Shown here: positions 7,437 through 44,159 of the stretch, piece after piece
Layout: each line of letters begins with the position of its first letter
Position numbering within the stretch: the stretch's first letter is position 1
DNA from: Dermabacteraceae bacterium TAE3-ERU27
Lineage (GTDB): Bacteria; Actinomycetota; Actinomycetes; Actinomycetales; Dermabacteraceae
Assembly (NCBI GenBank): GCA_019218415.1
Contig: JAHUUL010000001.1
Location: 186,001-250,000 of the forward strand
Length of the DNA stretch: 64,000 nt
Reading direction: 5' to 3'
The notes under the pieces: model-generated
The model's database searches: none
Told to the model about the DNA's origin: nothing
The model's input: only the letters and a program-made list of their open reading frames with translations
Program-made: the position numbers and the translations under genes

Positions 7437-7612
7437 TGTTGCTCCTGGTCGCGTCGGTTTTGCGTGCCGATACCAGTAAGTCTATGAGCGAAAGGCCGGG
7501 CTGGGCAGGGGGTGGCTAATGATTGGAGTAAGTCTTATTTAAGATTTTTAGCGCCGTGCGTCAGGTAGGGGTGTGCCTTGCGTAACCAGTGCCAGGGCGA
7601 TGGTGCAGGTGC

Positions 7613-8170
7613 TTACTCCCCGAAGTAATCTGCGCATGTCACTCCCTTCTCATACCTGGCATATTCAGCTATTTTCCAGGGGCTAGATGTGTTCTCGCGT
7701 ACCAGCGTGTAGCGATTTACAGCTTCATCCCGTACATCTGATTCGGGCTTTCCAAGGTCTTTGCCGTTCTTGTCGAGTAGGCGCAGAGTCGGTACTTTTT
7801 CGCAGAATTCGACAACGGCCTTGGTGTCGGTGCTGCTTTCCTTGTCGAGGGTCAGATTTGATACCTCTGTGATGATGTCGAGGTGGCGTCCGTACTTACC
7901 TTGCTTCTCGTAGTTCTCGGCCGCGGTCTCGTGGTAGTCCTTAACGCCTTCCGGGACTAGAAGATCATCGACTAGGCCGGGGTCTTTCCAGCCTCCGCGG
8001 GCTACCTTGTCATCCTGCTTGAAGTATTCCTTAACGGTTTCTTCTGCGGTGAGTTTTGGCTTGGGGGCTGCTGTTTTTGTGGCGGCCGCGGGCGCGGTGG
8101 TTCCGCAGCCGGCGAGGGGAAGCAAGAGGAGCGCCGCGGCTAGTGCTGGGTAGATTTTTCTGGTTTTCAT
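7613..8170 (-). CDS. Putative lipoprotein of unknown function
   Basis: This 185-residue secreted protein has a signal peptide and lipobox LAGC (about residues 19-22), an Ala/Pro/Lys-rich linker, then a small globular domain beginning near TAEETVKEYF. I do not recognise the domain. The overall pattern of a short linker plus an alpha/beta domain resembles NTF2-like or DUF-type actinobacterial lipoproteins, but this is only an impression. It starts 7 bases after the phosphotransferase gene ends and is likely co-transcribed with it. Confidence 0.8.
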   Translation of the reverse strand: MKTRKIYPALAAALLLLPLAGCGTTAPAAATKTAAPKPKLTAEETVKEYFKQDDKVARGGWKDPGLVDDLLVPEGVKDYHETAAENYEKQGKYGRHLDIITEVSNLTLDKESSTDTKAVVEFCEKVPTLRLLDKNGKDLGKPESDVRDEAVNRYTLVRENTSSPWKIAEYARYEKGVTCADYFGE

Positions 8171-8177
8171 TGCTTCC

Positions 8178-9422
8178 TCAGATCGCTAGGCGGGTGGTGG
8201 TTTTGTCGGTGAAGGCTACTTGCTCCACATCGTAGGAGATGTCGTAGTCCTCCTGCTCGGCTAGCCAGCTATAGAGGGTCCGCCGCAAAGTTATTAACGC
8301 GGGGTTAGCGGGGCTTTCTGCTTTGGCCGACAGGTGCAGCAGCATGTCGGTACGCTCCAGTGCCAGGCGGCCCCGGATGCGTGCCATGAGTGCGGCGGCA
8401 TCTTCCGGCTCATCATCCGGGCGTAGCCTGCGGGACTCGGCCACGTAAACCCCTACCAGTTCGGCCAAAGATTCCCACGGCAGCGGTACGTACCAGGGGC
8501 CGCCGTAGACAGGCCCGGCCAGGATCGCTAGATCCCGCGCCACATCGTCAAACATGGCCCACTCGAAATCGATCAGCGCGGGCGTACAGGGTGGGACGTG
8601 ATCAGCCTGTTCGGGAACGGACACGGAAGAAAGCGTGGTTTCGGCCGGTGTCGGATCGGGCCAGAGCACGTTGGTAGCGCAGGCGTCACCGTGGCACAGC
8701 GCGATCCGGGGCAGCGGGCCGCGCTCGCCAGTGAAATACGGTTCGCTGCTCGCAATAACCCATTTGGCGGTGGAAATTATCGGGGCGTTTTCCCGCAGCA
8801 CCTGCGGGTGCGTGCTTTCCCAATAGGTCAGGGATTCGGCGAACGCGGCAGCCAGGCTATACGGCTGGTGCTCAGGTGCCGGGGGAGCGTCGGCGGCAAC
8901 GTCGGCCCCACCGCGCGGCGCGCCGGTTATGTGGTGCAGCGCGGCCAGCATACGCATGTAGGCGGCGAGCATTTCCCGGTTCCAGCTTTGCGGCGGCAGC
9001 ACGCGGCCGGGCACGTAGTCCAGGCGCAGGTAGGGGAGTCCGATCTCGGATGTGGCCGACGTTTCCCGGTACTCGTGTAGGGCGGGCGCACCCTTGCCGT
9101 CTAACAGTTTCAGGGCGGCGGCCTCTGCGGTGAGTGGGCAGCGGCCCTCCCCGGCTTGTACGCGCAGCACCTGCCCGGTGGGGCGGTTTCCGGGGGAGGG
9201 GCTAGCGTTGGGGTAGGGGGCTCGCGCGGCGGTCGGTTGGTTATTTGGTTGATTGGTTGTTTGGTTTCGGGGCGTGGGTGCCAGCAGCCAGGCCGCGAAC
9301 GCTTCGCCCGCCCCTAGCAGGCTGGGGGAGGTGCCGGGAAAGGCTGCCGCGATGGTGCGGGTGAACTCGGGCGAGGTGGGCGGCGGCGTGACGGCGCGGG
9401 AGGGCTGCGTGTGGGGATTCAT
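8178..9422 (-). CDS. APH-fold phosphotransferase (aminoglycoside/choline kinase-like)
   Basis: This 414-residue protein has the C-terminal kinase lobe of the APH superfamily: Brenner motif LCHGDACATNVLW (catalytic Asp246) and the metal-binding IDFEWA (Asp285). The small-molecule substrate cannot be predicted; homologues include aminoglycoside, choline and homoserine kinases. The start at 9422 has a perfect AGGAGG 5 bases upstream. Residues about 52-80 form an Asn/Gln/Pro-rich low-complexity insert coded by TTGGTT-type repeats on the plus strand. The lipoprotein gene follows closely. Resistance should not be inferred from the family alone. Confidence 0.82.
   Translation of the reverse strand: MNPHTQPSRAVTPPPTSPEFTRTIAAAFPGTSPSLLGAGEAFAAWLLAPTPRNQTTNQPNNQPTAARAPYPNASPSPGNRPTGQVLRVQAGEGRCPLTAEAAALKLLDGKGAPALHEYRETSATSEIGLPYLRLDYVPGRVLPPQSWNREMLAAYMRMLAALHHITGAPRGGADVAADAPPAPEHQPYSLAAAFAESLTYWESTHPQVLRENAPIISTAKWVIASSEPYFTGERGPLPRIALCHGDACATNVLWPDPTPAETTLSSVSVPEQADHVPPCTPALIDFEWAMFDDVARDLAILAGPVYGGPWYVPLPWESLAELVGVYVAESRRLRPDDEPEDAAALMARIRGRLALERTDMLLHLSAKAESPANPALITLRRTLYSWLAEQEDYDISYDVEQVAFTDKTTTRLAI
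9233..9274. repeat. TTGGTT-type simple repeat inside the phosphotransferase gene
   Basis: Degenerate tandem units of TTGGTT/TGGTTG encode an Asn-Gln-Thr-Pro-rich stretch (residues about 52-63) in the protein. Units are not a multiple of one exact period, but slippage here could change length in 6-base, in-frame steps. Confidence 0.6.
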
Positions 9423-9815
9423 TGCGGCCTCCTGGTGGTGGATGGTTGTGCGCTGGGCGGCTTGATGGCTGGGCGGCTTGGCGGGATTAGGGCTGGAGGG
9501 TCGGGGTGGTTCAGTTAGAGGGAGGTGATCTGGAGGGTGTGGGACGGATAGACAGGGCGCAGATGCTGCTTTGCGGGGCTAGTGGGGCGTTGGCGGCCGG
9601 GGGCGTACGTTCGCGTGCAGTTTTGGTTGTTTCGCCTTGTGTTCCTTAACGATCGCGTGCACTTTCTGCTGTTTTGCCCCACCCCCTAACGCCTGGGTGC
9701 ACTAACTGCTGCGAAAACGGGGTTTAACCGGCAGAAAGTGCACCTGAACGTAAGGGCCAACCAAAAGTGCACCCAATCGTAACGAGGCATTGGGACTCCT
9801 GGGACTGCCCTTCGG
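9423..9815. other. 390-bp gap without genes
   Basis: No open reading frame with a plausible start is seen. The left part (9423-9640) is G-rich and should contain the promoter of the phosphotransferase gene reading left; no clear -35/-10 was found. The right part (9644-9787) holds four related ~25-bp repeats listed separately. No convincing terminator for the gene ending at 9816 was found. Confidence 0.6.
9644..9787. repeat. Four copies of a ~25-bp palindrome-centred repeat
   Basis: Copies lie at 9644-9671 and 9682-9711 in one orientation, and at 9730-9758 and 9761-9787 in the other. In the second orientation the consensus is close to GCAGAAAGTGCACC, then about five loose bases, then CGTWAGG; each copy is centred on the palindrome GTGCAC. 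The outer parts of copies 1 and 3 form a 13-base perfect inverted repeat (9657-9669 with 9731-9743). Confidence 0.75.
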
Positions 9816-10715
9816 TTAGGGTTCCGGCTGGGGCGGGTAGACGATGGTGACCATTTTGTGCAGCGCCTTGAACAGCTTTTTGCTGGGTACCAGATATTCG
9901 ATTTTCATGGCCCCGCTCAGCCGCGGCTGGGTGGCACTCTTCGCCTTCTTGCCCTTCTTCTTTTTGCCTTTCGCTTTGCCTTTTTTGCCGGCCTTTTCTG
10001 GCTGGCCGACGCTACCGGTGGCGGTTTCGGAGGTGAGGGCAAGCAGGGAGTCGGCGTCGTGGCCGATGGTTTCGAGCATGGCCTGCAGCGCGGCGTCGAG
10101 GCGAGCGGCCTCTGCCGAATCGAACGCAGGATTTTCTGCGGTAGCCGGTACCGGGGAAGCGTCTACCTGGGGGGCTGCTACCGGAGCGTTGCTGGTGCCG
10201 GGGTGGGCCTGCTGCGCAGTGGTTTCAGGGGTGGCATTTTCGGAATCGCCGACCGACTTGCCGTCCACCAGGCGCAGCGTTTCGGCGGTTTTGGCGACCG
10301 ATGCACTGAGCTGCTTCTTATTTTTCTTACCGGGCTTCTTGGCTTCTTTTTCTTTGGTCTTTTCCGTTACCTGGGCAGCGGTGATCTGTTTCGGGTCCAG
10401 GTAGGCGGTGACGTGCAGGTTTTTGCCGCGCGAGACGTCCTCGTCGCTGCCTGGTTTGCGGATCTGCAACTTCAGGCCGACGCCCATAGGGTCCAGGTAG
10501 AGCGGCACGTTGGGGCCGCCCCGGTAGATCGCCCCCATAGCGGCTAGCAGGTTCTGGGTTAGCTGCTCCCGATCCACCCGGAACTCGTGTACCAGGGTGG
10601 CGTGCGGCATGGTGAGCACCTGCTCGCCGACGACGCTAGAGGTGGTCACCTCGCGCAGCACCAGGGCGGTGCCTACGGCCCCTGACACGGAGGGCCATCC
10701 TAACTTATGCGTCAT
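9816..10715 (-). CDS. Hypothetical lysine-rich protein
   Basis: This 299-residue protein is not recognised. The first ~115 residues look globular. After about residue 118 it has a strongly basic stretch (KEKEAKKPGKKNKKQ), an Ala/Thr/Pro-rich acidic linker, and near the C-terminus a second poly-Lys/Gly segment (KGKAKGKKKKGKKAK) before a short conserved-looking tail. No signal peptide or membrane span is seen. The basic runs suggest nucleic-acid, polyphosphate or membrane-surface binding, which is inference. It overlaps the preceding membrane-protein gene by 11 bases. Its base composition is closer to the chromosome average than that of its two upstream partners. Confidence 0.7.
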   Translation of the reverse strand: MTHKLGWPSVSGAVGTALVLREVTTSSVVGEQVLTMPHATLVHEFRVDREQLTQNLLAAMGAIYRGGPNVPLYLDPMGVGLKLQIRKPGSDEDVSRGKNLHVTAYLDPKQITAAQVTEKTKEKEAKKPGKKNKKQLSASVAKTAETLRLVDGKSVGDSENATPETTAQQAHPGTSNAPVAAPQVDASPVPATAENPAFDSAEAARLDAALQAMLETIGHDADSLLALTSETATGSVGQPEKAGKKGKAKGKKKKGKKAKSATQPRLSGAMKIEYLVPSKKLFKALHKMVTIVYPPQPEP

Positions 10716-11382
10716 TTCGGTGTTGTCCCTTTATATATTTACGAATACTAGTCCAGATCCCGGTCTTTTCCCTAGATTCTAGATGCTCCTTTATTATGCG
10801 GACATCTTTGCTGAGGGTTTCGAGAGACTCAAGTGCAGGATCTTCGGTGTTTAAAGAGGCGATCTTTCCGTCTAGTTCGGAAATTCTCGCCTTCGCTCTA
10901 GTTTTTGTTTCCTCAAGCTGATCCAATAAGTCAGCGTTTAAATAAAAGGGAATTGGTGGCAGTGGACGGTAATGCCTAGTTTTAATTTCCGCTACCATCG
11001 AAGTCCACAGCTTTGTTTTGTCTGAGTGGCATAGGTCAAGCAAAGGCAGTCGCGCAACAAGAGGGGGGAGCCAAAGTATAAACAATCCCGCGCATATATC
11101 GCCCAGCTTTCCGGGGTAGATTAGATTCAATGCAGCTAGAGGTACAAAAAAGAGCAAATAACCTATAATTCTTCTCGGGGTTAATTTGTAAGAAGTGTAT
11201 AGCAAGCATGTGTATACGACCAGCAGTATAAGCGTAACTATGGCGATAGTGTAGGCCCCATTCTGCATGTCGTAATATGCCGCAATAGCTGGGATCAATG
11301 CCGATGGAGCAAAGGTAGTAAATTTGACTAATCTGAACGCCGCATTGACTGGAAATATGTTTACGATTAGGTATGCCACCAT
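10705..11382 (-). CDS. Hypothetical membrane protein with C-terminal coiled coil
   Basis: This 225-residue protein has about four hydrophobic helices in its first half (for example around FTTFAPSALIPAIAAYY, YTIAIVTLILLVVYTCLLY, RIIGYLLFFVPLAALNLIY and ICAGLFILWLPPLVARL). A cytoplasmic-type C-terminal half follows, with a heptad-like charged segment from about 148 to 205. I recognise no family. The ATG lies one base after the stop of the upstream membrane-protein gene and the end overlaps the next gene by 11 bases, so the three are translated as a unit. The DNA is clearly AT-richer than its surroundings, a sign of transfer. Confidence 0.72.
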   Translation of the reverse strand: MVAYLIVNIFPVNAAFRLVKFTTFAPSALIPAIAAYYDMQNGAYTIAIVTLILLVVYTCLLYTSYKLTPRRIIGYLLFFVPLAALNLIYPGKLGDICAGLFILWLPPLVARLPLLDLCHSDKTKLWTSMVAEIKTRHYRPLPPIPFYLNADLLDQLEETKTRAKARISELDGKIASLNTEDPALESLETLSKDVRIIKEHLESREKTGIWTSIRKYIKGQHRNDA

Positions 11383-11383
11383 G

Positions 11384-12166
11384 CTAGATAATTGAGGATG
11401 TCTTGAAGAAGGCTTTTAAATACCCCTGAAGGGGCGCTTGGGAGGGAATTAGATCAGGAATATAACGGGATGAAATAAATCCGATAAATAGTAGAAATAC
11501 GGCACTTTCCACCCCCAGATTATAGTCCCTCATAATTCTTCTGGTGATGGGTGAGTAAATATTGATCGACTTCAGTTTTTTCAGCTTATCTTCTGTGTCT
11601 TGCAGGAGTTCTTTTCCTCTAGCCATGTTTATGTGGTGCACAGCTGGCCCTAGGCTATGTGCATGTATTACAAGTTCTAGGATAGTTAAAGCTGCTGTAG
11701 CTTGCGCAAAGTCTACCAGCTGGGGTATTAAATTCTCCAGAATTAAGCTTTTATCCCAATACCTTTTGAGTAGGGCAAAGAGTGGTGCTACTGCTGTCAG
11801 ATAGACAAAAATGTTGGTGACTTGAAGGGCGCGTGTGGAGGTTTTTATTGCATTATATTCAAAATTGCTATTTGGGGATTTTATATAGCCTAATACAGTC
11901 ATTGAGAGCGGTATTGAAATTCCTATAACAACCCCAAGGTTTATATTATATCTTGTGATGGAGGCTATTGTTGATGCGATGTCTAAGGTGTGAGAGAAGC
12001 ATGTGCCGTAGTCCGCTTTTTGCTGTCTGAAAATCGCGTCACAGTTTGGCGATCCTATAGTCGCTATAAATGCCATTAATAATATCAGCAATGTGTATGC
12101 GAAGAGTTTGAATGTGGCCCTGGCAAATATAAATTTAGGCTTTAAATAATCTTTGGAGTCAGCCAT
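11384..12166 (-). CDS. Hypothetical polytopic membrane protein
   Basis: This 260-residue protein has about five predicted transmembrane helices: near residues 15-38, 73-92, 113-133, 150-170 and 218-236. A charged linker (RGKELLQDTEDKLKKLK) precedes the last one. I recognise no family. It is the first gene of the AT-rich three-gene cassette, starting only 15 bases after the isochorismatase-like gene, so it may be transcribed from the NCS1 permease promoter. Codon choice (many AT-ending codons, AUA Ile) differs from the neighbouring genes. Confidence 0.72.
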   Translation of the reverse strand: MADSKDYLKPKFIFARATFKLFAYTLLILLMAFIATIGSPNCDAIFRQQKADYGTCFSHTLDIASTIASITRYNINLGVVIGISIPLSMTVLGYIKSPNSNFEYNAIKTSTRALQVTNIFVYLTAVAPLFALLKRYWDKSLILENLIPQLVDFAQATAALTILELVIHAHSLGPAVHHINMARGKELLQDTEDKLKKLKSINIYSPITRRIMRDYNLGVESAVFLLFIGFISSRYIPDLIPSQAPLQGYLKAFFKTSSII

Positions 12167-12181
12167 GCGTATTTCTCGTTC

Positions 12182-12850
12182 TTACCTAACCCTCACCTGC
12201 GGCTCGAACAGCCCCATCACGTGTAGCGCCGCCGCGTGGTTTTCCGCCGTTGAGCCCGCGCAGGCGTCGGCCGCCACCGTGACGCGCATGCCCGCGTCGC
12301 CCGCCGCCAGGGCCGTCGCAACCACGCAGCAGTCCGTCGAGACCCCGGCCAGCACGATCGGCGGCAGCTCCGCCACCGGCACGTCCCCGTCCGGCCCGGC
12401 CGCAATACCGCAGCCGTCGGCCAGCGCCCGCCGCAGCTCCGGCCCCCACTTGCCGAAAGTCGCCACGTCCACACACGGGTACTGCGAAAGCCCCTCCGCC
12501 CCGTCCACCAGGTCAAACATGCGATCATCCGGTGCTTTATCGGCGAACGGCCAGGCCTTAAAGTACTCCCCCCAAGAGGTCGCCCTGTCGGCGGTAGGCA
12601 GCCAGCGGGTCACCAGCACCCGCCCCTCAAACTCGGCCGCCATCTCCCGAATCCGCGCGAATGCCGCCGGGAAAAACGGCGAACCCCACTCCGAGGCAGG
12701 GTCGGCGAACACCACCTGGGGGTCGATCACCACCAGCCAAGGCTCACGCGCCCGGCCCTCGCCCCGCCCGGTGTCACCGCCGCCAGCCATTCCGTCTACC
12801 CAGTCGGCCCGGTAGCCCGCCGCATCGGTCCCTACCTCCGGGCCGCTCAC
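12182..12850 (-). CDS. Isochorismatase-family cysteine hydrolase
   Basis: This 222-residue amidohydrolase-fold protein carries the family triad: Asp43 in LVVIDPQ, Lys134 in FGKW, and Cys175 in GVSTDCCVVATA. Members include nicotinamidases, N-carbamoylsarcosine and ureidoacrylate/biuret hydrolases. The start is GTG at 12850, overlapping the stop of the NCS1 permease gene by 4 bases (GTGA), so transporter and hydrolase are probably one operon. This suggests hydrolysis of an imported nitrogenous compound such as a pyrimidine, purine or nicotinamide-like amide; the substrate is not determined. Confidence 0.87.
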   Translation of the reverse strand: MSGPEVGTDAAGYRADWVDGMAGGGDTGRGEGRAREPWLVVIDPQVVFADPASEWGSPFFPAAFARIREMAAEFEGRVLVTRWLPTADRATSWGEYFKAWPFADKAPDDRMFDLVDGAEGLSQYPCVDVATFGKWGPELRRALADGCGIAAGPDGDVPVAELPPIVLAGVSTDCCVVATALAAGDAGMRVTVAADACAGSTAENHAAALHVMGLFEPQVRVR

Positions 12851-14337
12851 GCCCGGCCCTCCTGCCGCTTCACCTTGCCGCCGCGCAGCACTAGCGCCGC
12901 CAGGAAGCTGAACACCAGCGCGAACAGCACGCCCAGGTTCGCGTACGCCCAGGCGCTGTCCTTACCGCCGACGGTCCACAGCAGGTAGCCCTGCCAGTTG
13001 TTCCAGCTGGCAGCCTTCGCAAACTGGTTCACCACGTAGCCCCAGCCGATGCCGGATGCGACCGCCATGATGCCGAGCGAGGCCCAGTCCCACGCCCCGT
13101 ACAGGCCGCGCGGGTCGAACAGCGCCTGCTCGTCGTAGTCGCGCCTGCGGCTGACGATGTCTGCGATCATGATGCCCGCCCACGAAGCTAGCGGCACGCC
13201 CAGCGTGATCAGGAAGCTCTGGAACGGCTCCAGGAAGCTGGTCGCAAAGAACACCACCCAGATGGTGCCGGCGGTCAGGATCAGGCCGTCGATCCCGGCA
13301 GCGGCCGCGCGCGGGATACGGATGCCGAGGCTCAGCAGGGTCAGGCCCGACGAATAAATGCCCAGCACGGCCCCGGATACCAGGGCCAGCACGGCGGTCA
13401 GCCAGAACGGGATCAGCACCCACACCGGCAGCACCGCAGCCAGCGCACCGATCGGGTCGTTCTCGATAGCCTTGCTCAGCTTCTCATCGCTCGCGGAAAG
13501 GAACAGGCCGAAAATAACCAGCAGCACGGGAGCGATGGCCCCGCCGAAGGTGTTCCAGAAAACAATCGCGCCGGTGCTGGCATCACGCTTCTGGTAGCGG
13601 GACCAGTCGGCCGCAATGTTGATCCAGCCCAGCCCGAAACCGGTCATCACCATCACCAGCGCGCCGGTCACCTGCTGCCAGGAACCGCTCGGCAGTGCCG
13701 ACACCTTGCCCCAGTCGATGCTGGGGATTGTGAGCAGCACGTAAAGAATGGTGACTGTGCCGGTAAGCCAGGTCAGCAGCGACTGCATCCGCATGATCGT
13801 GTGGTAACCGGCCACCGACGCCGCCACGATCAGCGCCGCCACGGCGGCGGTCGCCGCGATCTTTACGCCGGTCGCATTGCCACTAACCCAGCCGAGCTGT
13901 TTGAACACGGTGGCGGTTGCTAGGGTCGCCATGATCGCCAGGAAGGTTTCCCAGCCGATGGAGGTCAGCCAGGAGACGATTCCCGGCACTTTCTGGCCGT
14001 GGAAACCGAACGCGGCGCGCGAAAGCACCATCGTCGGTGCGCTGCCACGCTTGCCCGCCACCGCGATGATGCCGCAGAGCAGGAACGATAGGGTGACGCC
14101 GACTAGCGCCACCAACGCGCCCTGGGTGACGGAAACCCCGAAGCCGAGCACGAACGCGCCGTAGGACATGCCGAACACGGAAACGTTGGCGGCGAACCAG
14201 GGCCAGAACAGATCGCGGGGTTTCGCGGTGCGCTCACCCTCCGCGATGATTTCGATGCCGGTCTTTTCGATCCCCACCCTTCTACTGTTTTCGGCGGGAG
14301 CCGGGGGAATGGGGAAACTGGGCGGTGTGGCGGTCAT
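12847..14337 (-). CDS. NCS1-family purine/cytosine-type permease
   Basis: This 496-residue, about 12-helix membrane transporter belongs to the nucleobase:cation symporter-1 family (cytosine, purines, uracil, thiamine, allantoin or hydantoin). The segment RDLFWPWFAANVSVFGMSYGAFVLG and the conserved GWINIAADWSRY motif support this. Three in-frame ATGs are possible; I chose 14337 because GGAG sits 6 bases upstream, whereas the ATG at 14343 is directly adjacent to it. It overlaps the isochorismatase-type gene and is divergent from lacZ. Confidence 0.9.
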   Translation of the reverse strand: MTATPPSFPIPPAPAENSRRVGIEKTGIEIIAEGERTAKPRDLFWPWFAANVSVFGMSYGAFVLGFGVSVTQGALVALVGVTLSFLLCGIIAVAGKRGSAPTMVLSRAAFGFHGQKVPGIVSWLTSIGWETFLAIMATLATATVFKQLGWVSGNATGVKIAATAAVAALIVAASVAGYHTIMRMQSLLTWLTGTVTILYVLLTIPSIDWGKVSALPSGSWQQVTGALVMVMTGFGLGWINIAADWSRYQKRDASTGAIVFWNTFGGAIAPVLLVIFGLFLSASDEKLSKAIENDPIGALAAVLPVWVLIPFWLTAVLALVSGAVLGIYSSGLTLLSLGIRIPRAAAAGIDGLILTAGTIWVVFFATSFLEPFQSFLITLGVPLASWAGIMIADIVSRRRDYDEQALFDPRGLYGAWDWASLGIMAVASGIGWGYVVNQFAKAASWNNWQGYLLWTVGGKDSAWAYANLGVLFALVFSFLAALVLRGGKVKRQEGRA

Positions 14338-14448
14338 GGCCATCTCCAAAGGGGGTGTGAGTGACGTGGGGGAACGCACTGCTGTGCCTATCTTAAGTAT
14401 GCCAGCCGCCCCTAGTGGAGGTATGGGCCCTAGGGCGGGTACGGTTTA

Positions 14449-33981: not shown

Positions 33982-36900
33982 GACTGGTCAGTGGCCCCTT
34001 CCTGCGGCTGGAACCGACGACGCAGTGCCAGTGCGCCCGCGCCCGCAACCAGCAGGCCAAGAGCCACGCCGAGGGGAGCCAGCGGTTCACCACCCGTACG
34101 GGGCAGCTTCGCACGGTCGGCGGAGGTCAGCACGCAGGGCTTGCCCTCGGGGGTGCGTCCCTGCATCTCCTTGACCATCACCTTGCCGTCCTTCATGAAC
34201 AGCTCGCCTACCTTGGCGTCGGCCTGGCTGCGCTTCTTGAAGTCAGCCACAGTGTTTGCCTTCGGTGCGGCGGCAGGTTTCGCGGCGCTGCCGCTGCTGG
34301 AGCCGAACCAGCGCTGACCAACTACCTTGCCGAAGTTACCGGACTCGAACACGGCCACGTTGCCGGGGCCCGCAACCGAGGTCAGGGTCCAGGTGACGGG
34401 GCCGGTCGTGCCGGACAGCAGCGACTCGTGCATGGTGTTCGCGCCCAGCCACGGCACACCGGGGATCTGCGAAGACGGCACCATGTAGATGGTCTCTCCC
34501 GGCTGAGCGATGAACTCGATGCCTGCCGGGGCGGTCGCCTTCGCACGGTCGTTCAGGGCGAAGGTGAGGCTGGAGGGCGAAACCCACTTGGCCGGGGCCG
34601 AGCGGTCATCCTTCAGCGCCGCCTGCAGCACGCCACCCTGGAACTGAGAGCCGAGGTCGAAGTGACCGTCGGTTACGCCCTGGGCGTTCGGGCCGACCGA
34701 GAAGCGCAGGGTTGCGTTCGCGGTGACACGCTGGCCCGAGCTGGTGGTAGCGCTCTGGCGGATACCCACCGTGTAGTTACCCGGCTTGGTGAATACCCAG
34801 TTCGGGTGCACGTGGCTGTTTGCCGGAATGGTGTGCGATCCGGCGATACGCACCACGCTGCTGTTAGCCGCGGGCGCTGCCGGAGCCTCGCCGCGCGAAG
34901 CCCGTGCGACCTCTTCCTTAGTTGCCTCGCGGACAACCTCGGCCGGGGTACACATCGGCGACTTCTCCGCGGGAGCGCTGCCCTTGCCGTTACCGCCGCG
35001 TCCAGCGATCAGGCCGGTGATGTCGCGGGAACCGGCGTAGGTGCCGGACTGCTTCTTACCCTTGGGGGAGCCCTGCTTGTCAGCGGAGTCTCCCTGCGGA
35101 GCCGGGCTGGACGGGGTGCCGGACTGCGGGGCCTTGCCCTGCGGCTGGTCACCCTTGGGGGCGTCAGTGCCGGGCTTGGCCGGAGCCGGCTGCGTGGCTG
35201 CTGCCGCGTAGCCCTTGCCCTTGAACTCATCGCCTACGGTCCAGGTGTAGACGGCCTCGTTTGAGACGGACTGCTTGCCGTCCTTCTTCCCGACCGCGCG
35301 TACCTTCACCTTGTAGACACCCGGCTTGGTGAACACCCAGTTAGCGTGGGTGTGGGCCGGGAATGCCTGCTCGCGTACGGCACCGCTCTTGAGCTCGGTT
35401 GCGCCGCCCTTCAGCAGGGGAGTGGTGCCGGAGAAACCGGTGCCGAACAGGAAGATCTGGCCGGGTCCGGAAACCTCGGTGAACTCAAGGTTGATGCCGG
35501 GGGCGAAACCGGAGTTAGCCGTGCTCATGGTGTCCCAACCGGGCCAGAGCAGTCGCTGATCCTGGGTCTGGGGCAGGAAGAAACGATCCTTGCCAGCGCC
35601 GGGGAATCCGGCGGGGACATCAACCTTGGCAGCCGACTTAACGTGCAGCTCCACGGTTTCCGGAGCGCGCAGCACGTGATGTCCGGTGACATCCTCCTTC
35701 AGCACCAGGTGCAGCTTGCCGTCCTTGACCGTCACGTTAAATGCGTCCAGGTGGCCCTTTTCTAGCACCAGATGATCGGCCTTCGGCTTCACCGGCTTAG
35801 CGGGCGCGGGGGTAGCCGGCTCGCTGGGCTTGCTCGGCTGTGCCGGAGCGGGCTGTTCATCGCCCGGCTTAGCGGGTTCGGTCGGAGCGGGTTCGCTCGG
35901 GTCGGTGGGCTGCGCCGGTTCCTCTACGGGATCAGCGGGAGCGGGCTCGCTCGGCTCGGTCGGTGCCGGGTTCGGCTGGATCGGATCTGCCGGTTCCTCC
36001 GGGGCGGGAGCAGCCTTGCCTTCGCGCTCGCAAGCGTTAGCGATCGCGTCATCACCCACGGCGTAGAACACGGTGTAGAAGTCGTAGCCGCGCTTGCCGG
36101 TGGTCTTGGCGTAAGAGATCGTGTATTCGACGCGGTAGAAACCGGGATCGGAGAACACGATCGACGGGTGTACGTGAGTCGGCTCGTTTACTCGCCACAC
36201 CTGGTTGGTGCGCTTCGAGTTCAGGTCTACCTCGTACTTGTTCACCAGGCTGTCGTAGTGGCCGAGGGCCATGGAGGAACCCTTGGGGCCGGTGAAGGAT
36301 TCGATGATGATCGAGGTTTCCTTGTTATCGGTGTAGTCGAGGTCCTCGGTGGAGAAACCGGGCCAGGGAACCCCGGCCTTTTGCACCTCGGGAAGCTCCC
36401 ACCTGTCGCCGGTGCCGACGATCTTGGCGAGATCGGCAAAACGCTTGTCGCTGCCGACGTTCACCTTGGCTGCGTTCGGCACCTCGATGACGACGCTGGA
36501 GCTGCCGTGCTCCACCTGCTTACCGTTCGGCAGGTCCTGGCGCATGAAGGCCGCCAGCCAACCGTCGGACCCGATCTTGGCACGCAGATCCAGGTGCCCC
36601 TCGGAGACGTGGGTGCACTTGGGCAGGTTCTTGGTCGGGTTGTAGGCGAGCGGATCCACCTTTTCCGGGGTGTTGTCCTTGGGGGTTTCGGCGGGCGGTT
36701 CGCCGATGTCGAAGTTATCTGCGGAAAGCAGGATGTTGGCACCCTTGTAGGTGCCCTCCGGGATACCCAGATCCTTATCCTCGCCCACCAGCCAGGTGAT
36801 GGTGTTGATGTCGGAAACTACCTCTTTGCCGTCGCTGGTCTTGCCGTGCGCACGCCACTTGGTGTCGTAGCGGCCCGGCTTAGTGAATGCCCAGTTGGTG

Positions 36901-37490
36901 TGGGTGTGAGCGCCGGGAGGCATCGGGAAGCGTGAGTGTTCCTTGTCCTTGGAGGAGAACAGGCGGGTCGGGTTCTTGCCATTGTTGAGGGTGAACACCT
37001 CAACGTCGCCGGGGCCGCCGGACTCCACCAACTCAAGCTCGATCGACTCGGGGTAGAACTTCTCGGGGATGTTGTGGCTAGCGCCGAAACCTGCCCAGAC
37101 GGGAGACCAGCCCTGCAGGTACTGCTGCGGGGAGCTCCAGACGACGTCGCCCGGCTTACCGAGGAAGGCCATGTCCGGGTCGTAGGGAACCTTAGTGCGG
37201 GAGGTTTCGATGCCCCGGGTGTCCGCGTCGGGGCCGAGGCGAACAAATACCTCGTCGGCCGGGCGGGGGGTGGAGCCATCGATGACCTTGAAGACGAAGT
37301 GTCCGTTGTCGGCGTCGCCCTCCCAATCGATATGGGCGGCGTCAACATGCTTGCGGTAGAGGAGGTCGCGTCCCTCGAAGGTATCTGCGGCGTAGGCGAG
37401 CGGGGCGCTCGCGAATCCGGCTAGCACCACGGCGAGGGTCGTGACCAGCGCGAGGGCACGTTCCGCGTGCCTGCGTGCCGGTTTCAGCAT
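33978..37490 (-). CDS. Giant LPxTG wall protein with choice-of-anchor M repeats
   Basis: This 1170-residue cell-wall protein has a signal peptide (MLKPARRHAERALALV...AYA) and three full choice-of-anchor M domains (about 40-245, 300-490, 585-765), then two half-domains (about 900-985 and 985-1095). Pro/Glu linkers separate them, and the end is LPRTG (1129-1133), a hydrophobic helix and a basic tail, the classical sortase signal. Four copies of the H-x-H...F(T/S)xPGxY signature are present. I chose ATG 37490 because AAAGGGAAA precedes it. It leads an operon with four overlapping genes. A Fur/Zur-like palindrome lies upstream. It matches the 'anchored repeat wall' family found beside this ABC system. 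Confidence 0.92.
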   Translation of the reverse strand: MLKPARRHAERALALVTTLAVVLAGFASAPLAYAADTFEGRDLLYRKHVDAAHIDWEGDADNGHFVFKVIDGSTPRPADEVFVRLGPDADTRGIETSRTKVPYDPDMAFLGKPGDVVWSSPQQYLQGWSPVWAGFGASHNIPEKFYPESIELELVESGGPGDVEVFTLNNGKNPTRLFSSKDKEHSRFPMPPGAHTHTNWAFTKPGRYDTKWRAHGKTSDGKEVVSDINTITWLVGEDKDLGIPEGTYKGANILLSADNFDIGEPPAETPKDNTPEKVDPLAYNPTKNLPKCTHVSEGHLDLRAKIGSDGWLAAFMRQDLPNGKQVEHGSSSVVIEVPNAAKVNVGSDKRFADLAKIVGTGDRWELPEVQKAGVPWPGFSTEDLDYTDNKETSIIIESFTGPKGSSMALGHYDSLVNKYEVDLNSKRTNQVWRVNEPTHVHPSIVFSDPGFYRVEYTISYAKTTGKRGYDFYTVFYAVGDDAIANACEREGKAAPAPEEPADPIQPNPAPTEPSEPAPADPVEEPAQPTDPSEPAPTEPAKPGDEQPAPAQPSKPSEPATPAPAKPVKPKADHLVLEKGHLDAFNVTVKDGKLHLVLKEDVTGHHVLRAPETVELHVKSAAKVDVPAGFPGAGKDRFFLPQTQDQRLLWPGWDTMSTANSGFAPGINLEFTEVSGPGQIFLFGTGFSGTTPLLKGGATELKSGAVREQAFPAHTHANWVFTKPGVYKVKVRAVGKKDGKQSVSNEAVYTWTVGDEFKGKGYAAAATQPAPAKPGTDAPKGDQPQGKAPQSGTPSSPAPQGDSADKQGSPKGKKQSGTYAGSRDITGLIAGRGGNGKGSAPAEKSPMCTPAEVVREATKEEVARASRGEAPAAPAANSSVVRIAGSHTIPANSHVHPNWVFTKPGNYTVGIRQSATTSSGQRVTANATLRFSVGPNAQGVTDGHFDLGSQFQGGVLQAALKDDRSAPAKWVSPSSLTFALNDRAKATAPAGIEFIAQPGETIYMVPSSQIPGVPWLGANTMHESLLSGTTGPVTWTLTSVAGPGNVAVFESGNFGKVVGQRWFGSSSGSAAKPAAAPKANTVADFKKRSQADAKVGELFMKDGKVMVKEMQGRTPEGKPCVLTSADRAKLPRTGGEPLAPLGVALGLLVAGAGALALRRRFQPQEGATDQS

Positions 37491-37569
37491 GGATTTCCCT
37501 TTCCAAGCAGCCCGGCAGGTGAGCAAGGCACCGTGTGTGCCTAGGGGGGAACACCCGGACGGGCGTGCA

Positions 37570-37590
37570 GATAATGACAACGGTTATCAT
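37570..37590. promoter_or_regulatory. Fur/Zur-type box upstream of the five-gene metal operon
   Basis: GATAATGACAACGGTTATC (37570-37588) agrees at 15 of 19 positions with the classical Fur-box GATAATGATAATCATTATC and contains a near-perfect palindrome ATGACAACGGTTATCAT (37574-37590, one mismatched pair). It lies about 80 bases before the wall-protein start. Considering the zinc-type binding protein, Zur is the likely ligand-responsive repressor, but Fur cannot be excluded. Confidence 0.7.
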
Positions 37591-37629
37591 ACACATCTTC
37601 TCTTGTCAGCACACCGTTTTCTCTCGGTA

Positions 37630-37673
37630 AAAGAAAAAGGAAGGGGGGCTCACGCTTTGCGCAAGCCCCCCTT
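37630..37673 (-). terminator. Terminator of the second wall-protein gene
   Basis: Read on the minus strand, AAGGGGGGCT pairs with AGCCCCCCTT around a 13-base loop (37641-37673) and is followed by CCTTTTTCTTTT. It separates the upstream monocistronic wall-protein gene from the five-gene operon. Confidence 0.88.
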
Positions 37674-37700
37674 GTTAGTTGCTAACCCTTACGGGATCCA

Positions 37701-40589
37701 TCAGGAGTTATCTCGCTGGGAATCCTGCTGCTGGAACCGGCGACGGAGCAGGAGCGCCCCGCTACCGCCGGCCAGTAGCATCAGGGCCACACCCAGGGGC
37801 ACCGCCGCGTCGCTGCCCGTGCGGGGAAGCTTGGTGCGGGCCGCATCGGAGGAGTCGCCCCCCTGGGAAAGGCTCGGCGACTTTTCCGGTGCGGAGGTAT
37901 CGGCGCGCGGCGCTTTCTTGGCCTTGTCCACTTCCTGCGCTTTAACCTGCTTGCCCTCCTTTGTGGGGGAGGCGGAAACCGGCGACTTTTCCGGTGCCGG
38001 AGCCTCTTCCTTTTCGGGCGTGGCGGGAGTCTCCGGCTGCGCTGCACCTTCCGGGGTGGCAGGCTGAGACGGCTTCACCGGTATGACTGGTGCGCCATCA
38101 GCAGGCTCTGCAGGTTTGGTGGGATCCTCTGCGGGCTTTGCGGGAGCGGTCGGCTCCGCGTGAGTGGCCGGTTCCTCTGCCGGTTCACCGGGCTGGGTGG
38201 GCTCCTCTACCGGTTCTGCAGGGGTTTCCGGTTCCGCAGGAGTGGTGGGTTCCGCCGGAGTGGCCGGTTCCGCCGAGGTTTCCGGTTCTGCGGGGGCCGT
38301 CGGCTCCGCAGGAGTGGTCGGTTCCGTAACCGGATCCGCCGGGGCGGGAGTTTCCTCCTCCGGCTTGGCCGGGGCCACGTAGCCCTTGCCGCGGAACTCA
38401 TCGCCCACGGTCCAGGTGTAAACGGCCTCGTTGGAAACTTCCCGCTGGCCGTCCTTTGCGCCAACCGCGCGAACCTTCACGGTGTAGACGCCGGGCTTGG
38501 TGAACACCCAGTTTGCGTGCGTGTGGGCCGGGAAGGTCTGCTCGCGTACGGCACCGGTCTTGAGTTCGGTGGCGCCGTCCTTGAGGAGAGGGGTCATGCC
38601 GGTGAAGCCGGTGCCGAACAGGAAGATCTGGCCGGGTCCGGAAACCTCGGTGAACTCGATGTCGATGCCGGGTGCAAATCCCGTACCGCCCGTGCTCAGG
38701 GTGTCCCAGCCGGGCCAGAGCAGGTTGTGATCCTGGGTCTGGGGCAGGAAGAAACGATCCTTGCCCTCGCCGGGGAATCCGGTGGGGATGTCCATCTTGG
38801 CGGCCGATTTCACGTGCAGTTCCACCGTTTCCGGGGCGCGCAGCACGTGGCTGCCGGTGACATCCTCCTTGAGGGTGAGGCGCAGCTTGCCGTCCTGCAC
38901 ATCGACGTTAAAGGCGTCCATGTGGCCGTGGTCGAACACCAGCCTTTCCGTAGCGCTGTCCTCGTTCGGATTTTCCGGATTCGCGGGTTCCGTGACCGGC
39001 TTTGCGGGCTCCTCCACGGGGGTGGCGGGGGTCGGTTCTACCGGCGCGGGCTCCGGCGCCGGAGCCGGGTTCGGCTGGATCGGCTCGGCGGGAGAAGTGG
39101 CCACCGGCGTTTCCGCGTTTTCCCGCTCGCAGGAGTTGGCGATCGCCTTGCTGCCTACCGCGTAGAACACGGTGTAGAAATCGTAGTTGCGCTCACCCGT
39201 GGTCTTTTCGTAGGAGATCGTGTATTCGACCTGGTAGAAGCCGGGGTGAGAGAACACGAGCGACGGGTGTACGTGGGTCGGTTCATTGATGCGCCACACC
39301 TGGTTTTGGTCGCGCGACTGCAGATCCACCTCGTACGTGCCGGTGAGGCTGTCGTAGTGGCCGAGGGCGAAGGATGCGCCCGCGGGCCCCTCGAAAGACT
39401 CCAGCTTTACCTTGGTGTCCTTGTTGTTCGTGTAGTCCAGATCTTCGGTGGAGAATCCCGGCCAGGGGATGCCCGCCTTTTGCACCTCGGGAAGCTCCCA
39501 CTTCTCGCCTGTGCCGACGGCGCTCGCCAACTTCGCGAAGCGCTTGTCCTTGCCCACCTTCACCTTGGCCTTGTCGGGCACCTCGATGACGACGCTGGAG
39601 CTGCCGTGATCGACCTGCTTACCGCCGGGGAGGTCCTGGCGCATGAAGGCGGCCAGCCAACCGTCGTCGCCCATTTTGGTGCGCAGGTCCAGGTGCCCCT
39701 CGGAAACATGGGTGCACTTGGGCAGTTCTTTGGTCGGGTTGAAGGCCAGCGGATCGAAAGGCTGCGGGGTATTAGGGGAGTCCTCTTCCGCCGGGGGGTT
39801 GCCGATATCGAACTGCTCCGCCGGGGTGGTTATCCTGGCGCCCTTGTAGGTGCCCGCGGGGATACCTAGTTCTTCGTCGGTGCCGACAAGCCAGGTTACG
39901 GTCTGCACGTCGGAAGTAACTTCCTTGCCCTCGCGGGTCTTGGCGTGGACCCGCCACTTGGTGTCGTAGCGGCCCGGCTTGGTGAATGCCCAGTTGGTGT
40001 GCGCGTGGGCACCCGGCTCCATCGGGAAGATGGAAAACTGCTTGTCTTTCGAGGAGAAGAGGCGATCGGCCAGCTCTCCCTTGTTGGTGTTGTAAACCTC
40101 TACGTCACCGGGGCCACCCGAAGCGATCAATTCCAGCTTCACGGACTCCGGGAAGAACTTTTCCGGGATGTCGTGGCTGGCGCCAAAACCCGCCCAAACC
40201 GGGCTCCAGCCGTAGATGTAGTCCTGCGGGGAGGCCCAGATGACGTCCCCCGGCTTGCCGAGGAAGGCCAGGTCCTTACGGTGGGGCACCTTTATGCGCG
40301 AGGTTTCGATGCCTCGCGTGTCGGCGTCGGGGCCGAGGCGAACGAACACCTCGTCGGCCGGGCGCGGGCGGGAACCGTCCACCACTTTCACCGTGAAGTG
40401 CCCGTCCTTTTCGTCTCCCTCCCAGGAAATGTGGGCGGCATCGACGTGCCTGCGGTAGAGGAGGTCGCGTCCCTCGAAGGTATCTGCGGCGTAGGCGAGC
40501 GGGGCGCTCGCGAATCCGACCAGCACCACGGCGAGGGCCGTGACCAGCGCGAGGGCACGTTCCGCGTGCCTTTGTGCCGGTTTCAGCAT
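37701..40589 (-). CDS. Second LPxTG wall protein with choice-of-anchor M domains (paralogue)
   Basis: This 962-residue wall protein is a close paralogue of the 1170-residue neighbour: the signal peptide and first ~500 residues are nearly identical. It has three choice-of-anchor M domains (about 40-245, 300-490, 560-745), each with an H-x-H...PGxY signature. A long Pro/Glu/Thr-rich repeat region (about 745-900, units like TPAEPT) follows, then LPRTG (921-925), a transmembrane helix and a basic tail. The start ATG 40589 has GGAAAGG upstream. It has its own Fur/Zur-like box and terminator, so it is an independent transcription unit. It probably serves as an alternative or additional wall receptor for the same importer. 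Confidence 0.92.
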   Translation of the reverse strand: MLKPAQRHAERALALVTALAVVLVGFASAPLAYAADTFEGRDLLYRRHVDAAHISWEGDEKDGHFTVKVVDGSRPRPADEVFVRLGPDADTRGIETSRIKVPHRKDLAFLGKPGDVIWASPQDYIYGWSPVWAGFGASHDIPEKFFPESVKLELIASGGPGDVEVYNTNKGELADRLFSSKDKQFSIFPMEPGAHAHTNWAFTKPGRYDTKWRVHAKTREGKEVTSDVQTVTWLVGTDEELGIPAGTYKGARITTPAEQFDIGNPPAEEDSPNTPQPFDPLAFNPTKELPKCTHVSEGHLDLRTKMGDDGWLAAFMRQDLPGGKQVDHGSSSVVIEVPDKAKVKVGKDKRFAKLASAVGTGEKWELPEVQKAGIPWPGFSTEDLDYTNNKDTKVKLESFEGPAGASFALGHYDSLTGTYEVDLQSRDQNQVWRINEPTHVHPSLVFSHPGFYQVEYTISYEKTTGERNYDFYTVFYAVGSKAIANSCERENAETPVATSPAEPIQPNPAPAPEPAPVEPTPATPVEEPAKPVTEPANPENPNEDSATERLVFDHGHMDAFNVDVQDGKLRLTLKEDVTGSHVLRAPETVELHVKSAAKMDIPTGFPGEGKDRFFLPQTQDHNLLWPGWDTLSTGGTGFAPGIDIEFTEVSGPGQIFLFGTGFTGMTPLLKDGATELKTGAVREQTFPAHTHANWVFTKPGVYTVKVRAVGAKDGQREVSNEAVYTWTVGDEFRGKGYVAPAKPEEETPAPADPVTEPTTPAEPTAPAEPETSAEPATPAEPTTPAEPETPAEPVEEPTQPGEPAEEPATHAEPTAPAKPAEDPTKPAEPADGAPVIPVKPSQPATPEGAAQPETPATPEKEEAPAPEKSPVSASPTKEGKQVKAQEVDKAKKAPRADTSAPEKSPSLSQGGDSSDAARTKLPRTGSDAAVPLGVALMLLAGGSGALLLRRRFQQQDSQRDNS
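38095..38350 (-). repeat. Pro/Glu/Thr repeat region in the second wall protein
   Basis: Tandem degenerate 18-base units encode six-residue repeats such as TPAEPT, APAEPE and TPAEPV. It is the wall-spanning spacer. Repeat number could vary by recombination. Confidence 0.8.
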
Positions 40590-40662
40590 GGTTTTCCTTT
40601 CCAAGCGGGTCGGCCTGCGGGCAGGAAATGAGCGCCTGGTGCGGCAGGTTACCGACCATATA

Positions 40663-42908: not shown

Positions 42909-43973
42909 TTAACCGTCCCAGTCTTGTGGAGGAGTTGTTGAGTCTTTTATTAGGTTCTGGCGGGCTGTGGCGATGACTGCTTCGTGGGAGTCCTTTGCCT
43001 GTGTGGTGTCCAGGCCCAGGTCTCTGGCTACTTGCGTTGCATGTCGACGCCAGTCGAGGTTCTCGGCGGCATGTAGCTGCAACTTGCGGGATAGCTCAGG
43101 GGTCCATTCGGACAAGGCCGAGTGTAGCTCCGAGAGGGAGCCGTGTACATCCGTGGTGGATAGCCTGACCTGGGTCCAGTCTGGGAGCAGTTTCTTTGTC
43201 GTTGGACTCTCGGGAGGAATACCTGCTGTAAGAGCACCGTAGGCACAGGAATCTGTCCAGCGAGCGGTCAGATAGCTTCTCTCGTGGTGGGTGTAGTTTG
43301 CCGGGCTTACGAGGTTATTGAACGCTAATACCGCCTTCGTGTGGGCGTAGGCCTGATAGAGAGCGGTGGTGTCGTCATGATCTTTCCCGAACGGGGGACG
43401 CCCGGAAAAAGCTAGGGAGTGTTTGGCTGCCGCTTCTCCGGTTGCAAGGTCATCGTCCCATGCTGCAGGTTGGCGGCCTATGCGGGTGAGGTCAGTATTC
43501 TTCTTCAGTTCCTCAGTAACCGAAAGGGCTGTCTTTACGTCAGCACCCCAGGGTAGGCAGGATACGCTTACCCCTGTGCGTGATTCCCAGGCGGAGACAT
43601 CCTGGCCATCGGAGACGTAGATATGATCGAAAAACTGCCAGGTCTTAAGCGGTGGATTGACAATACGCGGGATGCGGTCCCACCAAAAACTATCTATGAC
43701 CCACCCATAGACTTGTGCGGCATGCCTATCGAGCATTTCCGCAGCGGCGTAGAGACCAGACGGGACAGGGGAAATTAGAAGCGCGTTATACCTTTTCCCT
43801 CGAATCCTGGGGAGTGTCGATCGAAGCTTTGTTTTGCGCGAATAGTTATGATTTAGAGGAAAGCGATAAAGCTCTCCTTCTAGGGTTGTGGCTAATACTT
43901 TTGCAGCTTGCGTGATAGGTGCCCATCCAGGGCCGCCGTCATCGATTAGTATGATGCGGAGAGGAGTCTCCAA
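42909..43973 (-). CDS. Glycosyltransferase-like protein (CgeB/GT1-type), orphan
   Basis: This 354-residue cytoplasmic protein has a GT-B-like appearance: an N-terminal Rossmann-like start (LRIILIDDGGPGWAP), a middle CgeB-like segment (FDHIYVSDGQDVSAWESRTGVSVSCLPWGADVK), and a C-terminal part with FNNLVSPANYTHHERSYLTARWTDSCAYGALTAG, resembling the nucleotide-sugar side of CgeB or DUF3880-type proteins. The start is the rare TTG at 43973, supported by AGGAGG 6-8 bases upstream. The gene is alone, AT-richer than its neighbours and flanked by a terminator, suggesting acquisition. The substrate is unknown. Confidence 0.6.
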   Translation of the reverse strand: METPLRIILIDDGGPGWAPITQAAKVLATTLEGELYRFPLNHNYSRKTKLRSTLPRIRGKRYNALLISPVPSGLYAAAEMLDRHAAQVYGWVIDSFWWDRIPRIVNPPLKTWQFFDHIYVSDGQDVSAWESRTGVSVSCLPWGADVKTALSVTEELKKNTDLTRIGRQPAAWDDDLATGEAAAKHSLAFSGRPPFGKDHDDTTALYQAYAHTKAVLAFNNLVSPANYTHHERSYLTARWTDSCAYGALTAGIPPESPTTKKLLPDWTQVRLSTTDVHGSLSELHSALSEWTPELSRKLQLHAAENLDWRRHATQVARDLGLDTTQAKDSHEAVIATARQNLIKDSTTPPQDWDG

Positions 43974-44159
43974 ATGTGTCCTCCTGACTTTTGAGGTAGC
44001 GAGAACCTTCTACGGAGCCTGCAACCTGTCTAAACAGCAAACTTTTTACTCCCTAAACTTAGCAGCCGGAAATATTTTGTGCGTGAAGTGTTTTAGAAAG
44101 TCAAGCCTGTTATACCAGAGGCGAGACGTAAAGGGGGGCTGTATGGGATTATCGAGGGC

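Follow-up and report, generated by a model that had tools for sequence, protein, structure and literature searches.

In the 64-kb window analysed here, a stretch of a 2.0-Mb draft genome of 37 contigs, the membrane-protein position of a tightly packed operon has been replaced relative to a sister species. The replacement has sharp edges, the soluble protein gene that follows it is conserved, and the genes overlap in both species. The comparison genome is one other species of the genus, Dermabacteraceae bacterium TAE3-ERU5 (contig JAHUUK010000003.1), and the locus is carried by these two genomes only.

The locus comprises three open reading frames (ORFs) on the minus strand. The first membrane ORF, g1 (11384-12166; 783 bp, 260 aa), is followed after a single base (TAG C ATG) by the second, g2 (10705-11382; 678 bp, 225 aa), which in turn overlaps the start of g3 (9816-10715; 299 aa) by 11 bases. 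The first-pass annotation of this DNA had called all three, with the 1-base gap and the 11-base overlap, and they lie where it placed them; its description of two polytopic membrane proteins, borne out by hydropathy, and one soluble, Lys-rich protein is also right. The g1 protein has about four transmembrane (TM) helices, then a basic helical stretch of cytoplasmic type and a fifth TM helix, and g2 is hydrophobic from residue 1, with about four TM helices and then a charged helical tail of 110 aa. The three ORFs extend an upstream operon, also on the minus strand. Its first gene encodes a permease, assigned by profile search to the NCS1 type (12847-14379), and overlaps by 4 bases the gene for a hydrolase of the isochorismatase fold family (12182-12850), which is conserved family-wide and precedes g1.

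The two genomes are colinear over the window, in long blocks of about 87-97% DNA identity. Outside a duplicated region near 35-40 kb, just three stretches of more than 500 bp lack a match: 7525-8315, 10698-12194, and 42909-44143. The second of these is the replaced segment (1497 bp, 42% GC), which has no DNA homology to the sister species. Homology runs out inside both neighbours: at 12195, among the final codons of the hydrolase gene, and at 10697, among the opening codons of g3. Between the species the flanks are 92% and 97% identical. At the same place TAE3-ERU5 has one polytopic membrane ORF of 472 aa and 41.8% GC. As read from the sequence, this ORF starts at an ATG within an ATGA that it has in common with the hydrolase stop codon, and at its far end it runs 14 bases into g3, compared with 11 for g2 in the window. 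The sequence differs but overlaps are found in both species; the tight packing of the genes has therefore been preserved. Conserved flanks enclose content that is non-homologous between relatives, as at variable chromosomal spots.

Base composition sets the same segment apart. The GC content of g1 is 0.402 and that of g2 is 0.437 (0.41 and 0.44 at third codon positions), against a background of about 64% and third-position values of 0.76-0.86 in neighbouring genes; g3 has 0.620 (0.77). The bin 11001-12000 is the sole 1-kb bin below 0.5 in the GC profile of the window (0.419), in keeping with the earlier remark that g1 and g2 are much AT-richer than their surroundings. Only these two genes belong to the foreign-looking patch, and g3 is outside it. 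The idea of a transferred patch agrees with the foreign look and the variable position of g1 and g2 and does not extend to g3. The window contains no tRNA, the locus gave no Rfam match, and no mobile-element gene was seen in the patch.

Judging from its pattern of change, g3 is a real gene, because the substitutions that separate it from its ortholog in TAE3-ERU5 (91% amino acid identity) favour codon position 3 (15, 14, and 39 changes at positions 1, 2, and 3) and dN/dS is 0.28. It is preceded by a Shine-Dalgarno motif (AAGG/AAGGA). The protein has a conserved N-terminal part of about 110 aa and a conserved C-terminal part of about 32 aa, with a linker rich in Lys, Ala, and Pro between them. 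In the first 110 codons dN is 0.049 and dS 0.335, and over the last 32 codons dN is zero; the linker is nearly neutral (dN 0.063, dS 0.082). Outside the genus, g3 is absent from the 47 family, 297 order, and 396 phylum genomes searched (order and phylum were sampled, and scans of public collections detect close relatives only), and it has no match in plasmids, phages, or viral contigs. Two weak matches to g3 in the phylum fell mainly within the low-complexity linker and were rejected.

Elsewhere in the family, the hydrolase is present in 45 of 47 genomes and adjoins the permease in 9 of the 10 loci examined. None of these ten loci, all from other family members, has g1, g2, or g3 after the hydrolase; unrelated genes occupy the site. 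In genome L065 the permease and hydrolase are still followed, beyond some other genes, by the phosphotransferase and the DtxR-type gene in the same order; the intervening genes are short-chain-dehydrogenase-like and lipoprotein-like. The site after the hydrolase is variable across the family, since genes other than g1-g3 follow it in the examined loci, and this genus is the only one in which the g3 locus was seen. Within the genus the trio is not a fixed unit, because TAE3-ERU5 has g3 but neither g1 nor g2. The "fixed small operon" of the first-pass annotation, which had proposed a survey for the trio and named its absence as a unit as grounds for dropping the idea, does not survive this comparison: the only other g3-bearing genome has one different membrane ORF in place of g1-g2, and the trio does not recur. 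The locus is a warning against inferring a conserved trio from a single genome.

Profile searches covered g1, g2, g3, the joined g1-g2 protein, and the 472-aa ORF, with not every protein run against every library. None of the five matched PADLOC, and in Pfam, NCBIfam, PHROGs, and PDB sequences nothing rose above the curated cut-off; the best matches were marginal and far below it. That g1 and g2 resemble no known family was claimed at the outset, and these searches, without a credible match, bear it out. No relatives of g1 or g2 were found in the genomes searched, in plasmids, or in phages, and neither of the two genomes holds a paralog of g2 or of the 472-aa ORF. A weak genome match to the 472-aa ORF was rejected because it falls among ATP-synthase-like membrane genes. 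AlphaFold2 gave poor models (mean pLDDT 40 for g3 from two sequences, 44 for the 472-aa protein from one sequence). None of the profile, sequence, or structure results points to a particular function, defence included. A search of the literature for a comparable case returned only general ORFan papers.

Most likely, g1 and g2 act as one split membrane gene, because g2 has no Shine-Dalgarno motif and starts 1 base past the g1 stop. Several further features argue for the same reading: the joined protein would have 486 aa, close to the 472 aa of the sister-species ORF; g2 is hydrophobic from its start; the two frames have a common open stretch of only about 33 bases; and the hydropathy order corresponds. 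In a hydropathy alignment, g1 plus g2 scored 0.407 against the 472-aa protein and 0.166 against its reverse, and the real order beat all 46 circular shifts, while 300 segment shuffles gave a single score as good. This topology test is suggestive only, with cut points chosen by the analyst, few controls, and a small decoy set. The lone ORF of the sister species resembles g1-g2 in length and topology, but sequence similarity between them is undetectable: alignments of g1, g2, and the join with the 472-aa protein were no better than locally shuffled ones (z about 0 or below). The g1/g2 junction may also contain a sequencing error. The join was read through for searches only.

Our preferred reading, held tentatively and with somewhat less than even confidence, is that a variable membrane unit is partnered with the constant g3. 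The genes would be coupled in translation as one operon (permease, hydrolase, membrane gene, g3). Its membrane-gene position has been swapped wholesale between the sister species, with g3 and the hydrolase left in place. In the window, g1 and g2 in series could yield one membrane unit through stop and restart, or they could be one gene recently split by a frameshift. The soluble, polybasic g3 may then work at the inner membrane face with this unit as its variable partner; the overlap of the genes is the one feature that suggests such a functional coupling. Rapid turnover, a high AT content, and the lack of relatives would fit a component whose diversity is favoured by selection; that this selection comes from phages, mobile elements, or competitors, and that the component is of the surface receptor, exclusion, or immunity type, is a guess. 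The locus could have a role in defence, exclusion, antagonism, competition, or secretion. More specifically, and by analogy with immunity or receptor loci under diversifying selection, one may picture a genus-specific two-part system: its constant part would be the soluble, polybasic g3 and its exchangeable part a membrane protein built as four TM, coil, four TM, coil, whose gene moves as a cassette bounded by the coding ends of the adjoining operon genes; in this specific form we think it unlikely.

Other explanations have to be weighed against a selected partnership. The exchange could be a neutral displacement of the membrane gene within the operon. The main rival, to which we give somewhat less weight than to the preferred reading, is that the segment is decayed cargo, a recently acquired ORFan from a phage or mobile element that is already frameshifted into g1 and g2 and being lost, has no function with g3, and happens to sit at an insertion-tolerant site. 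A GC content of 40-44%, the lack of relatives anywhere searched, and the unrelated genes found after the hydrolase in ten other family members would all fit such an origin, as would adjacent ORFs in different frames with a region of about 33 bp open in both and a g2 without a Shine-Dalgarno motif; a genome survey traces many ORFans to integrative elements (PMC2718499), which we count on the same side. However, g1 and g2 both keep long reading frames (783 and 678 bp) that no further stop interrupts, and the sister species has an intact ORF of similar topology in place with the overlap of g3 kept, which is unexpected for random cargo. If the segment is nonetheless decaying cargo, the locus is an instance of ordinary ORFan turnover; should selection instead maintain the membrane gene as an exchangeable partner of g3, the locus would be a compact pair of constant and variable genes at the level of the genus.

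The common position, similar length, similar GC, and similar hydropathy order of g1-g2 and the 472-aa gene could also mean that the two are true orthologs that diverged in place under diversifying selection. We consider this highly improbable: the flanks differ by only 3-8%, homology ends abruptly, and zero similarity beside 97% identical DNA is implausible, so that exchange by recombination is simpler. Little better are the prospects of a three-component defence or competition system of g1, g2, and g3, which was the reading of the first-pass annotation and which we regard as quite doubtful. Small overlapping genes, an AT-rich variable membrane part, and the lack of catalogued relatives are what such a system might show, but PADLOC gave no match, the neighbours are metabolic genes and not a defence island, and the trio is not a unit.

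Set beside known phenomena, the g1-g2 segment is like short AT-rich ORFans in its composition, its lack of detectable relatives, and its sharp edges in colinear DNA. It differs from them in being longer (about 1.5 kb), in encoding polytopic membrane protein within a tightly packed operon, and in having a topologically similar counterpart gene in the sister species. With variable chromosomal spots it has in common the conserved flanks, the non-homologous content, and a corresponding site that is filled by other genes in the rest of the family. Unlike at those spots, only one gene position is exchanged here, the boundaries lie within the terminal codons of the two adjoining genes, and neither a tRNA nor a mobile-element gene was seen in the patch.

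The cassette had also been described as lying next to repeats. These exist, as a cluster at 9602-9782 with a consensus of about ACGTTTGGGTGCACTAACTGC, but they lie outside the cassette and are dispersed, genus-specific, and genome-wide, and do not mark it; as cassette borders they were rejected on account of that distribution. At no more than one mismatch, the repeat has 54 copies in this genome and 66 in that of the sister species, compared with 5 and 4 for the reversed control. The repeat ACGTTTGGGTGCACTAACTGC has a palindromic GTGCAC core and often appears as direct copies about 40 bp apart that face inverted copies. Its appearance is that of a genus-specific REP- or MITE-like element.

Some other differences between the two species fall within the window. 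At 42909-44143 there is a second swapped spot, where the DNA is unalignable and the GC content in the window is 54%; the gene at 42909-43973 and its counterpart in the sister species (L011, 5915-7009) nevertheless have recognisably similar protein sequences in both species, and the difference looks like an allelic exchange. The stretch 7525-8315 (55% GC) holds a lipoprotein-like gene (7613-8170) that is missing between the same neighbours in the sister species and has a weak match to DUF4829 only. Finally, the region 35192-40606 contains blocks, near 35-37 kb and near 38-40 kb, that have two counterparts each in the sister species (the second match at 77-84%), which points to a duplicated unit of about 2 kb.
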